A DNA stretch of 47,353 nucleotides from assembly GCA_012800055.1 (NCBI GenBank), contig JAAZKA010000031.1:1-47353 (forward strand), written 5' to 3'. The translations under genes were made by a program, and so were the position numbers. The DNA is from Clostridiales bacterium (lineage in GTDB: Bacteria > Bacillota > Clostridia > Oscillospirales > QAMX01). The notes beneath the pieces are model-generated. The model saw nothing but the letters and a program-made list of their open reading frames with translations. It had not been told where the DNA came from and did not search any database. Below are positions 42,884-47,269 of the stretch, piece after piece (position 1 is the first letter of the stretch; the number at the start of each line of letters is the position of its first letter).

Positions 42884-44176
42884 TTATGTCTCAAAAATTT
42901 GTGACAGAAGTGCCTGAAATCCGTCCAGAACCGCATCTTCACTCTTTTCAGAGCACTCCGGAAGCCCGTACCAGTGCGGTGCCGACGCCGACTCGTAATC
43001 ACCTTCCGCGAGCGTCTCCGCCGTCGCCAGGTAGCCGTACGTCCCGTTCGCGCACTCCACCACGTACCGACACGCGTCTGGTACGTGGTGGAGCAGCGCG
43101 TTTACCGCCGCACCCGTCTTCGTCAACACCTCGAACGGCAGAAACGCGAACGCTATGCCCCCGACCGTCAGTACGCTCAGAGGAACCGTCAGTGCATTCT
43201 CCGCACGTCCCGCACATACCTGTGTCAGTGCATGCCGGTGCCACAGAAGCTCTCTGAGCGCTATGCGTTTGCATACATCCCCGTCCGGCGTACCCGGCAT
43301 CGCATAATACCCGCGTTCAAGTTCCGCGAGCTTCTCCGTCAGTATACACATGTCCGGGTACGCGCGCATCGGCACCGTGACCTCCCGGAAGTCCGCGTGT
43401 GCGCTGCCGTCCGCGCATGGGTTCCCGCACGCCAGAGCCTCTTTGACGCCGCGTACAAGCTCCCCGCCGACCAGTTCAATCCGCTTGTCAAACGGTGCGT
43501 CGTCGGGCAGCTCCGGCGTGTACGGGTTGATGTCGCCGCACGCACCCTGCAGGTACAGCGCCGGGACGTTGAACGCCCGTGTCAGCACACCCGGAAAGTC
43601 CGCGGAGATCCGGTAGTCCGTCCGGATGACCGCGTGGCATGCGGCGTTTGCGAGGATGCCGCGCAGTGTGTCGGATGCGTCGTAGAAGCCCGCCGCGCGG
43701 ATCCGGGGATCGTGTGCCGGCCGTCCGCGCCGGTTATGCGAGTGCGTCAGCTCTCCGCCGAAGCCTGCGCGGAAACGTCCCGGAACCGCCGAAGCCAATG
43801 CGTCTTTCGCCGCCAGCCCCGCCGTCTCTCCGACGCGCGCCCAGTACAGGCCGTTGATGGGCATATCCGACAGCACCCCGCATGCCGGCCCCGCGTGCGT
43901 ATGCGTCGCGCAGACTGCGGTGTGTGCGTATGGGACCCCCGTCAGTGCTGCGATGTGTTCCCGCAGCGTGCCCGCCAGCGTTCCGCCGAATCCGCAGACA
44001 TCAAACTGCGCAATGAGATACCGGAAATCCCCCTGTACAAACGCGCAGACCTTCACATACAGCCGGTCAGCGATGCCCTCTGCCGCATGAAGACGGAAAC
44101 CGTAGCCATCCTGATAGACCTGCCCCGGATCCGGCGTGATGTCCCGTGCGGCGAATCCACAGCACAGCGTGTCCAT
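42884..44176 (-). CDS. Neutral/alkaline ceramidase-like hydrolase
   Basis: A 430-residue protein resembling the catalytic domain of neutral ceramidases and related hydrolases of unknown substrate. It begins CCGFAARDITPDPG, as that family does, and contains the zinc-site ATHTHAGP (His92, His94), the NAACHAV segment and LQGACGDINP. It has no signal peptide and lacks the long C-terminal domain of true ceramidases, so a cytoplasmic amide- or ester-cleaving role on a small metabolite is more likely than lipid breakdown. AAGGAG precedes the ATG. It is the last gene of the operon, 12 bases after the second aminotransferase homologue. Confidence 0.78.
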   Translation of the reverse strand: MDTLCCGFAARDITPDPGQVYQDGYGFRLHAAEGIADRLYVKVCAFVQGDFRYLIAQFDVCGFGGTLAGTLREHIAALTGVPYAHTAVCATHTHAGPACGVLSDMPINGLYWARVGETAGLAAKDALASAVPGRFRAGFGGELTHSHNRRGRPAHDPRIRAAGFYDASDTLRGILANAACHAVIRTDYRISADFPGVLTRAFNVPALYLQGACGDINPYTPELPDDAPFDKRIELVGGELVRGVKEALACGNPCADGSAHADFREVTVPMRAYPDMCILTEKLAELERGYYAMPGTPDGDVCKRIALRELLWHRHALTQVCAGRAENALTVPLSVLTVGGIAFAFLPFEVLTKTGAAVNALLHHVPDACRYVVECANGTYGYLATAETLAEGDYESASAPHWYGLPECSEKSEDAVLDGFQALLSQIFET

Positions 44177-44188
44177 GAGTACCACTCC

Positions 44189-45118
44189 TTATATACGGAT
44201 GCGGAAATAACCCGTCTCCGCACGGACGGTGTTTTCAAATTCCTCATCCGAATGCCCGCCGAAGACCGGCAGCCGGTGTAATGCCGTGTACGGCCGCTCG
44301 ACCGCGTACCCGCGCTTCACAAGCGCCTCCCTGCACGTTTCGCAGCGGATTCCGTCGCAGCGCAGCAGCAGCGTTCCCGCCGTCGGCAGGTGTACCGCGC
44401 GCATCCTCGGGCATGGCCATTCATTTGACAGCAGCTTTTCGCATGCTGCCGCGTCCCGGTCGAGTGCCGCCAGTGTCTCCGATAACACCGCGCACGGGAA
44501 CTCCGAAACCCGCAGGTTGCCCCCGATGCGTGTGTTTACCACGCTCTCCGACGCGCCCGACGTGTACGGACGCCCGCAGTTGTGCGCCGCATAGATGCGG
44601 TCAAACATTGCCGTGTCATCCACAGCGGCGATACCGATGTGGTTCGCGCCGCAGCCGATGCCGTAGACCGCTGCCGCGCATTCCTCTGTTTTCGGCAGTG
44701 CATCCCGTGCATATAGTACCAGCCGCTCCCGTCCCGCTGCGTACGCAAGTGCCGTCAGATCCGGCTGACCGAGCGCTTCACAGAGGACCGCGCGCGTCCG
44801 GGCGGTGATATACCGTTCCGCGCTCATCGGCGACAGGCAGCCGGTGCGGTAGTCAATGTCCGCGAAGACCGGCGTAGCACCTGCCATCAACACCGTGTCC
44901 GCAAGAATGCGGTCGCAGTATGCCGGCAGGATTACCTCAAACCCCTCCACGTCCAGGCCTCGCAGCACCGCTTCCAGTGCCGCCTGGACGGAGTACGTCA
45001 GCAGCGCGTGCGATACTCCGAGCCGCTGTGCAATCAACGTGCCGCCGTCCACCGAACGCGGCCCGATCGTTCCCCATGCGTGGTTCAGTGTCTCCTTCAA
45101 TGCCTTGTTCACGCTCAC
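44189..45118 (-). CDS. DegT/DnrJ-type aminotransferase homologue lacking the PLP lysine
   Basis: A 309-residue homologue of the preceding gene's product. It keeps the fold landmarks EVILPAYCDR, AGATPVFADID and the aspartate of YARDALPK (Asp139, aligning with the pyridine-binding Asp), and ends with the substrate region NTRIGGNLRVSEFPCAVL. The block that should read SKNLTxGEGG, with the Schiff-base lysine, is instead CGANHIGIAAVDD (about 156-168), with no lysine. It is about 70 residues shorter than the partner. Either it is a catalytically dead subunit or it uses another chemistry. It starts with GTG, overlapping the previous stop by four bases, so 1:1 coupled synthesis is likely. Confidence 0.75.
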   Translation of the reverse strand: MSVNKALKETLNHAWGTIGPRSVDGGTLIAQRLGVSHALLTYSVQAALEAVLRGLDVEGFEVILPAYCDRILADTVLMAGATPVFADIDYRTGCLSPMSAERYITARTRAVLCEALGQPDLTALAYAAGRERLVLYARDALPKTEECAAAVYGIGCGANHIGIAAVDDTAMFDRIYAAHNCGRPYTSGASESVVNTRIGGNLRVSEFPCAVLSETLAALDRDAAACEKLLSNEWPCPRMRAVHLPTAGTLLLRCDGIRCETCREALVKRGYAVERPYTALHRLPVFGGHSDEEFENTVRAETGYFRIRI

Positions 45119-46251
45119 ACCTCCCTCAGTGCGTCCAGATTATCATAGACCTTCTCAATCGCCCGTACGACGTCCGCGAGATCGTCCGGCGTTCCGAGAA
45201 GTGTCGGGGGTGCCAGCCACGCGCCCTCGTGTCCCGCGACGTAATCCGTCACCGGCGTGTTGTGCGGTTCGTTCACCCCGGGTGTCGCGTACAGCGGACG
45301 GTAGCCCGTCGTCAGCGGTATTCCTTCCGCCACCACCGCTTCCACAAACCGGTCGCGCGTCACGCCGCGGAGTTTGTCCTCATGGATGCGGATGAAGTAC
45401 AGGTGGTATGCGTTTGATGTTACGCGCGGGTCTCCCGGCATCGGCGAGACATACCCCAGCGGCGCGAGATGCGCGTCCAGGTACGCCGCGCTCTCCTGAC
45501 GGTAACGAAGCTGCTCGGGGAAGCGTGCGCTCTGCGCATTCAAGATACCTGCGCAGTAGCCGTTTATACCTGCCCGTACGCCGATGTGCGTGTCGTCGCC
45601 GCCGGACACTATTACCCGCAGCGTTTCGTGCAGCACGGCATCCGTCGTCGTGATGATGCCGCCTTCGCCGCAGGTCAGGTTCTTCGAGTTCTGACATGAG
45701 AACGCCGCCGCGGTTCCGTACGCCGCGATGCTCACACCGCGCCACGTCGCGCCGACCGCCTGCGCCGCGTCATGAATCAGTGCAATATTGTGTTTCTCCG
45801 CGATTGCGCCCAGCGCGTCGCAGTCCGCCGGACGTCCTCCGACGCTCACTGCCAGGATCGCACGGGTATGCGGCGTGATCTTCCGCTCGACGTCGGCGGG
45901 GTCTATATTGTAGCTGTCCGGCAAGATGTCCGCGAAAACCGGCACCGCGCCGATGAACCGGATCGCCGCGTACGACGCGATGAATGTGTACGGCGGCAGA
46001 ATCACCTCATCCCCGCGCCCGATGCCCAGCGCGCGGAGAATCAACTCGATGCTGACCGTCCCGCTCGCGGTGGGCAGGACGTACGGCACCCCGCAGTAGT
46101 TTGCGTACCATTCGGCGAAGCGGCTGCTTTCGTCAAGCGTGGGCGTCCGATAGACACGGTCGAGCGCGGCTTCCTCCGTATGGTCGTGGATCGGCCAGCG
46201 CGGGTAGGGCTTCTTACGGATGGGCTTTCCGCCCAGAACGGCAAGACGCAT
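45115..46251 (-). CDS. DegT/DnrJ/EryC1/StrS-family PLP aminotransferase
   Basis: A 378-residue sugar-aminotransferase-like enzyme that would transfer an amino group to a keto-sugar or similar carbonyl. The N-terminus LAVLGGKPIRKKPYPRWP is typical of the AHBA-synthase-like branch. Asp161 (IHDAAQAVGA) and the Schiff-base Lys190 in SCQNSKNLTCGEGG are intact. The ATG at 46251 follows AGGAGG and shares a base with the kinase stop (TAATG). A longer frame upstream lies inside the kinase gene and is rejected. The substrate is unknown. Confidence 0.9.
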   Translation of the reverse strand: MRLAVLGGKPIRKKPYPRWPIHDHTEEAALDRVYRTPTLDESSRFAEWYANYCGVPYVLPTASGTVSIELILRALGIGRGDEVILPPYTFIASYAAIRFIGAVPVFADILPDSYNIDPADVERKITPHTRAILAVSVGGRPADCDALGAIAEKHNIALIHDAAQAVGATWRGVSIAAYGTAAAFSCQNSKNLTCGEGGIITTTDAVLHETLRVIVSGGDDTHIGVRAGINGYCAGILNAQSARFPEQLRYRQESAAYLDAHLAPLGYVSPMPGDPRVTSNAYHLYFIRIHEDKLRGVTRDRFVEAVVAEGIPLTTGYRPLYATPGVNEPHNTPVTDYVAGHEGAWLAPPTLLGTPDDLADVVRAIEKVYDNLDALREV

Positions 46252-47165
46252 TAGTATTCCTCCTGACTTTTGTTCATGGCATAGCGTGCCGCGCCCATCT
46301 CCGGCGGAGTTGTCAGCGGCGCGGCGGGGCTGTTCGGATACAGTTCCGCGAATCTTTGTGTGAAACGTTCCCGGACGCGTGTGGAATGCTGGAAGACGCC
46401 GCCGTACAGACCCACCGGGCAGTCCTCTCCGACCTTCCTCCGCAGCGCCGCTGCATACCGGATCAGACTGTCCGCAGCCGCGTCGAGGACATGACATGCA
46501 TGGAGGTCTCCGTCGGCGGCGAGCGCGTCGACATCCTTCGCAAATGCCGCGACGGCGTCCTTGGTGCAGGCGGGGTCATTGAGGATGGCGATCAGGGCTC
46601 GCGGAGAATTTACGTTGAAGTGGGAGAGCGCGGCGTCGGTGAGGGCGGGGGAGGCCTCTATTCCGTCGGAGGCGTCGAAGACATATGAGAGCGCGCGGGA
46701 GGCGATGTCGAAGGCGCTGCCGGGGTCGGCGGTCGGATGTCCCCAGCCGCCGGCGACGTGGAGGGCACCGGTACGGTCGAACGCGGCAGACATCGAGCCG
46801 GTGCCGGCGATAACCAGGATGCCGGGCGCGCCGGCGGTCAAGGCATAGAGGGCCATGAAGACATCGCTTTTCATATAGATGGGGGTGGTTTCGGGGAGGA
46901 CATGAGTTTCACGGAGAGCGGCGAGGAAGGCGTCGCGCGCGGGGTCATCGGGGGAGTCATCGAGGGCGGGGTTGCCGATGGCGGCGGCGGCGATGGGTGC
47001 GGGGAGAGAGGAGATTGCACAGGCAAGGTTGGCGACTGCTGCGGACAAGCCGACGGTATACTGGTTGAGCGGGCCGGCGGAGGCAGCAGCGATGACCGTG
47101 CCGGTCTGAGAGAGGACGAGCAGGCGGGTTTTGGTTCCGCCGCCGTCCACGCCGAGGTAGAGCAT
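46251..47165 (-). CDS. BadF/BadG-type N-acetylglucosamine-kinase-like ATPase
   Basis: A 304-residue ASKHA kinase distinct from the murQ-linked one. It has YLGVDGGGTKTRLLVL at the N-terminus, the second loop VIAGTGSMSAAF, then AGGWGHPTADPGSAFDIA. It should phosphorylate an amino sugar or related compound with ATP. The ATG at 47165 follows GGAGGC; earlier in-frame codons lack a ribosome-binding site. It opens an overlapping run of four genes, so its product or substrate may connect with the aminotransferase pair and the ceramidase-like hydrolase. Confidence 0.85.
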   Translation of the reverse strand: MLYLGVDGGGTKTRLLVLSQTGTVIAAASAGPLNQYTVGLSAAVANLACAISSLPAPIAAAAIGNPALDDSPDDPARDAFLAALRETHVLPETTPIYMKSDVFMALYALTAGAPGILVIAGTGSMSAAFDRTGALHVAGGWGHPTADPGSAFDIASRALSYVFDASDGIEASPALTDAALSHFNVNSPRALIAILNDPACTKDAVAAFAKDVDALAADGDLHACHVLDAAADSLIRYAAALRRKVGEDCPVGLYGGVFQHSTRVRERFTQRFAELYPNSPAAPLTTPPEMGAARYAMNKSQEEY

Positions 47166-47269
47166 GGGAAGCCTCCGATCTGACGCGCAATCCGCGTCCA
47201 AACTCCCGTACAGGAGATTCCGCAGGAATGGTCGGGGGTCGTAAGAAAGTAATATCGTATTTTTGTAGG

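Follow-up and report, generated by a model that had tools for sequence, protein, structure and literature searches.

A DegT-type aminotransferase homologue without the catalytic lysine, and the composite active site that it probably forms with its intact neighbour

Genes of the locus and their surroundings

The window, which is the whole stretch of 47,353 nucleotides that was analysed, carries on its minus strand a sugar kinase gene, two consecutive genes for DegT homologues, and a gene for a protein resembling the N-terminal domain of neutral/alkaline ceramidases (Table 1). The stop codon of the kinase gene overlaps the start of the first DegT gene in the sequence TAATG; the product of the latter, here called the intact subunit, has Lys190 in its SKNLTCGEGG motif, as the preliminary description of this DNA had stated. 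The two DegT genes are joined by a GTGA overlap, from which stoichiometric synthesis of the two proteins had been deduced: the overlap is present and suggests that expression of the pair is coupled, without proving stoichiometry. An alternative in-frame GTG occurs two codons downstream of the GTGA start, and because its spacing to the GGGAGG element is better, the second gene may start at either codon.

As for family assignment, the second DegT protein, here called the lysine-less subunit, scores 78.4 bits on PF01041 (cut-off 19.8), mostly through residues 4-122. The ceramidase-like protein of the window has a PF04734 score just below the curated cut-off, and its homologue in the genome denoted G924 is above it (1.2e-11).

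Table 1. Genes and conserved motifs at the locus, with positions in the window
Feature	Positions	Strand	Evidence and remarks
BadF/BadG-type sugar kinase	46251..47201	-	PF01869, 5.4e-29; upstream gene of the operon
Intact DegT subunit, 378 aa	45115..46251	-	PF01041, 8e-76; Lys190 in SKNLTCGEGG
Lysine-less DegT subunit, 309 aa	44189..45118	-	PF01041, 7.7e-22; open frame
WGTIGP motif, residues 15-20 of the lysine-less subunit	45059..45076	-	alignment
HNCGRP motif, residues 178-183 of the lysine-less subunit plus Pro, approximate	44570..44587	-	alignment
GGNLRVSE motif, about residues 199-206 of the lysine-less subunit	44501..44521	-	alignment
Neutral/alkaline ceramidase N-terminal-domain-like protein (Ceramidase_alk-like)	42884..44176	-	PF04734, 1.2e-7; downstream gene

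The order of intact DegT gene, lysine-less DegT gene and ceramidase-like gene was found in five genomes from three families: that of the window, G008 from the same family, G924 from the same order and another family, and G291 and G228 from another order and family. These five pairs, all of them from draft genomes, are those found among roughly 900 different genomes (1,791 counting repeats), and no further pair appeared in the scan of genome contigs or in the plasmid search; the partners co-occur in the same order in every genome that has the pair (n = 5). The BadF-type kinase is found at the corresponding position in G291, G228 and G924, where the operon has, in addition to the kinase, the DegT pair and the ceramidase-like gene, a gene of the SIS type. 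This composition suggests that a sugar or amino sugar is processed. As for the substrate, the kinase and the DegT family make a sugar or sugar phosphate probable, though this is a guess.

Regarding regulation, genes for AraC-like regulators lie beside the kinase/SIS/DegT-pair operon of G924 (contig L211, 1467-2372), beside a kinase/SIS/ceramidase operon without the pair in G377 (L102, 3921-4796), and, on the minus strand, beside single-copy DegT relatives in L036 and L039, hinting at an inducible sugar pathway. The G377 operon (L102, 5908-9043) encodes a BadF-type kinase, a SIS-domain protein and a ceramidase-like protein (E 3e-112 to that of the window) and has no DegT gene; the rest of the pathway can therefore exist without the pair, and the idea that the ceramidase-like operon needs it was rejected.

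Cofactor residues and the segment donated across the dimer interface

As known from Pcryo_0638 (PMC8040287) and Spr1654 (PMC5936713), a subunit makes five contacts with its own cofactor: besides the lysine, an Asp meets the pyridine nitrogen, a Thr and a Ser the phosphate, and a Gln or His O3'. The 309-aa protein had been described as a DegT homologue with no lysine at the catalytic place, and this was confirmed: it has five lysines (residues 5, 8, 143, 228 and 268), none of which is in the catalytic column, and the equivalents of Pcryo_0638 Thr60, Asp156, Gln159 and Ser180 are also gone. Whether homologues elsewhere share this trait had been posed as a check, and all five lysine-less proteins do, their catalytic column holding a gap or Ile, Cys, Cys, Asn, Ser; those of G291 and G228 have a lysine one residue off this column, so that for them the case for a loss depends more on the remaining cofactor residues. 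With five contacts scored in five homologues of each kind, 25/25 are kept in the intact subunits and 0/25 in the lysine-less ones; the Schiff-base lysine and cofactor contacts expected within the chain of an active DegT enzyme are thus found in the former and missing from the latter. Chance or an alignment error at the lysine was ruled out, because the loss also covers the four other cofactor residues and because four homologous pairs occur in other genomes.

The losses extend beyond single residues. The window protein has a shortened lysine loop, the proteins of G008 and G924 are without much of the small domain, and the sizes found across the lysine-less proteins (335, 309, 277 and 273 aa) reflect different degrees of reduction. 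For the window protein, an AlphaFold2 model built on a 58-row alignment (mean pLDDT 78, pTM 0.78) predicts the DegT large domain with confidence, with ten-residue pLDDT means of 84-96 up to residue 130, and gives no confident structure to the former lysine loop (140-158) and to parts of the small domain. Compared with DegT chains, the model has Z values of 25-27 and an rmsd of about 3 Å over about 270 residues, in agreement with a DegT fold. The earlier statement that the rest of the fold is preserved hence holds for the large domain, and fails for the lysine loop and parts of the small domain.

The active sites of DegT dimers also take residues from the opposite subunit. Subunit B, the opposite one, supplies Lys215 and Tyr229 in Pcryo_0638, and Phe229 of DesI, likewise from the opposite subunit, is the equivalent of this Lys215 (PMC8040287); for Spr1654, the sites are stated to depend essentially on both subunits, Gln234* and Tyr249* coming from the opposite one, and the Lys/Asn amino-donor residue, apparently in the Asn239 column, is given without the opposite-subunit asterisk (PMC5936713). 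Asn239 is one of five ligand contacts common to Pcryo_0638, PglE and DesI. In the alignment, Pcryo_0638 Lys215 corresponds to the Arg of an HxCGR motif (HNCGRP in the window protein) and Asn239 to the Asn of a GxNxR motif (GGNLRVSE in the window protein); the papers state a trans location for Lys215 (Phe229 in DesI) and Tyr229, and we infer that this Asn, the second Arg (Arg241) and the Trp of WGTxG also act in trans in DegT dimers, against which, for the Asn, the missing asterisk in Spr1654 speaks.

The lysine-less subunits keep the Trp, the HxCGR Arg and the Arg of GGxxR in all five cases and the Asn in three, with Asp in the other two, so that 18/20 of the donated-segment residues are present, against 0/20 in the intact subunits; the latter do not hold the own copy of the segment that a homodimer would require, and their corresponding loop is mostly deleted in the case of the window and G008. 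Nine related single-copy DegT proteins have the Trp and the HxCGR-type Arg in 9/9 and the Asn and the second Arg in 8/9 each, together with all the cofactor residues. The comparison was restricted to these nearest single-copy relatives because a census of 138 DegT sequences revealed GxKxN as a second common type beside GxNxR, which contradicts the notion that the Asn and Arg of GxNxR are near-universal in the family.

For an exact test, the closely related G291 and G228 were collapsed to one lineage. The intact subunits then have 20/20 cofactor residues versus 0/16 donated-segment residues (p about 1e-10, with residues and lineages that are not truly independent), and the lysine-less ones have 0/20 versus 14/16 (p about 3e-8, which for the same non-independence conveys the size of the contrast only). 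The pattern had already been recognised in the other four pairs when the G924 pair was identified; both subunits of the latter fit. As a control, the tandem DegT genes of G295 and G254 (L195/L199 and L200) encode two copies that both have the lysine, the GxNxR and the HxCGR-type residues; since both keep everything, the view that any tandem DegT pair splits in this way was rejected.

Origin, selection and the proposed heterodimer

Phylogenetically, the lysine-less and the intact proteins fall into two distinct groups of five, each supported at 100/100 in a tree of 45 proteins, and this grouping shows each subunit to be of one origin. The intact group sits beside single-copy DegT proteins of G092, G069 and G106; the branches of the lysine-less proteins have roughly double the length or more, and for this reason the exact attachment of their group is uncertain. 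Between G291 and G228, the two closest copies, the lysine-less gene has a dN/dS of 0.17, denoting purifying selection, and the values are 0.08 for the intact, 0.10 for the SIS, 0.15 for the kinase and 0.21 for the ceramidase-like gene.

Taken together, the reciprocal loss of residues points to a heterodimer with one active site per dimer. It is likely that the DegT pair is an obligate heterodimer whose only active site, of the DegT type, is a composite of both chains, and that it arose through one duplication followed by complementary loss. The upstream subunit would contribute the Schiff-base Lys190 and the cofactor pocket, and the lysine-less one the residues that cross the interface to the cofactor or the substrate. 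A homodimeric DegT gene would have been duplicated once and the two half-sites then lost in a complementary manner; with its own site dead, the lysine-less copy could shed the lysine loop and part of the small domain. We consider it likely, with slightly less assurance, that one DegT site has in this way been divided between two genes by reciprocal loss, each product being useless alone, and that the dead copy is shrinking to a minimal donor of a half-site. Duplication, complementary loss and shrinking would together account for the reciprocity, the co-occurrence of the partners, the gene overlap, and the higher evolutionary rate of the lysine-less copy.

The preliminary description had also proposed a heterodimer, with the lysine-less protein as a structural or regulatory pseudo-subunit. 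A protein of this kind would be a scaffold, a stabiliser or an effector sensor and would place no residue in the site of its partner. The absence of an own cofactor site and the reduced small domain of the G008 and G924 proteins agree with such a role; however, it leaves unexplained why the motifs conserved in this protein are those of the donated segment, and why exactly these are lost from the intact partner. This part of the proposal is probably wrong, and the role itself appears unlikely: the protein looks like the catalytic other half because the segment that completes the opposite site is kept there and lost in the intact subunit. A new PLP-independent activity, or a ligand of its own, exerted without pairing with the neighbour, would fit a protein that has lost the cofactor site in 5/5 homologues and still has several invariant motifs; yet these are DegT motifs that also occur in the single-copy relatives, with no new pocket, and the neighbour is without the matching residues in every genome, so that we regard this reading as very improbable. 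Decay of a duplicate, to which the long branches and the parts deleted from the lysine loop and the small domain could be ascribed, was rejected as scarcely credible on account of five open frames, a dN/dS near that of the neighbouring genes, and motifs that are invariant over three families.

The other part of the proposal, that the gene is not in decay and would serve a heterodimer, has good support in the absence of the lysine from all five proteins, the open frames, the purifying selection and the constant pairing. The reading frame had been called preserved, and neither a stop nor a frameshift occurs in any of the five lysine-less genes; a homologue with the lysine, or a broken gene in a close relative, would have spoken against the proposal, and neither was found in the clade.

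If the composite-site heterodimer is true, the pair offers a clean natural example of the passage from a homodimeric enzyme to an obligate heterodimer, in which, after duplication, each copy drops the half of the shared site that is supplied by the other. The occurrence of pairs over three bacterial families, with their varied reduction, would make this path open to study, and to annotate each gene as a DegT aminotransferase in its own right would probably be incorrect in either case.

Comparison with known systems

The fold and the family of the PF01041 sugar aminotransferases, such as AHBA synthase (1B9H), Pcryo_0638 (7L7X) and WbpE (3NU7), are common to both subunits. AHBA synthase has HSCGRP and GSNMRLNEF motifs, like those of the lysine-less subunit, and together with 7L7X it is among the best PDB matches of the single-copy relative L036. 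According to their descriptions, the known DegT enzymes are homodimers in which the lysine and the donated residues reside in one chain, whereas here they are in two; no lysine-less or heterodimeric DegT protein was found in the open-access texts that were searched.

ColD and the related DegT dehydratases are devoid of the catalytic lysine, have His in its place and retain the pocket for the cofactor. The lysine-less subunits differ from them in having no His in the column and no cofactor pocket, and assignment to this type was rejected because the Asp on the pyridine nitrogen is also lost. Among the sequences collected, a dehydratase-like His replaces the lysine in the DegT homologues of L129 (2513-3649), L136 (125-1390) and L027 (G052); on the viral contigs L129 and L136, the His-type homologue adjoins another DegT gene.

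Outside the family, the P-protein of glycine decarboxylase, GcvPA/GcvPB, is a bacterial PLP enzyme made of two homologous subunits with the lysine on one of them; it differs from the DegT pair in family and reaction. Serine palmitoyltransferase (LCB1/LCB2) is likewise a heterodimer of homologous PLP subunits, one of which is without the lysine: hLCB1 has no PLP residues, other residues of it are predicted to be catalytic, and there is one site per heterodimer (PMC3794620). Unlike the DegT pair, this enzyme is eukaryotic and membrane-bound, belongs to a different PLP family and catalyses another reaction; by analogy, the DegT pair would work like LCB1/LCB2, a likeness that concerns the way of working only and claims no membership of that family.
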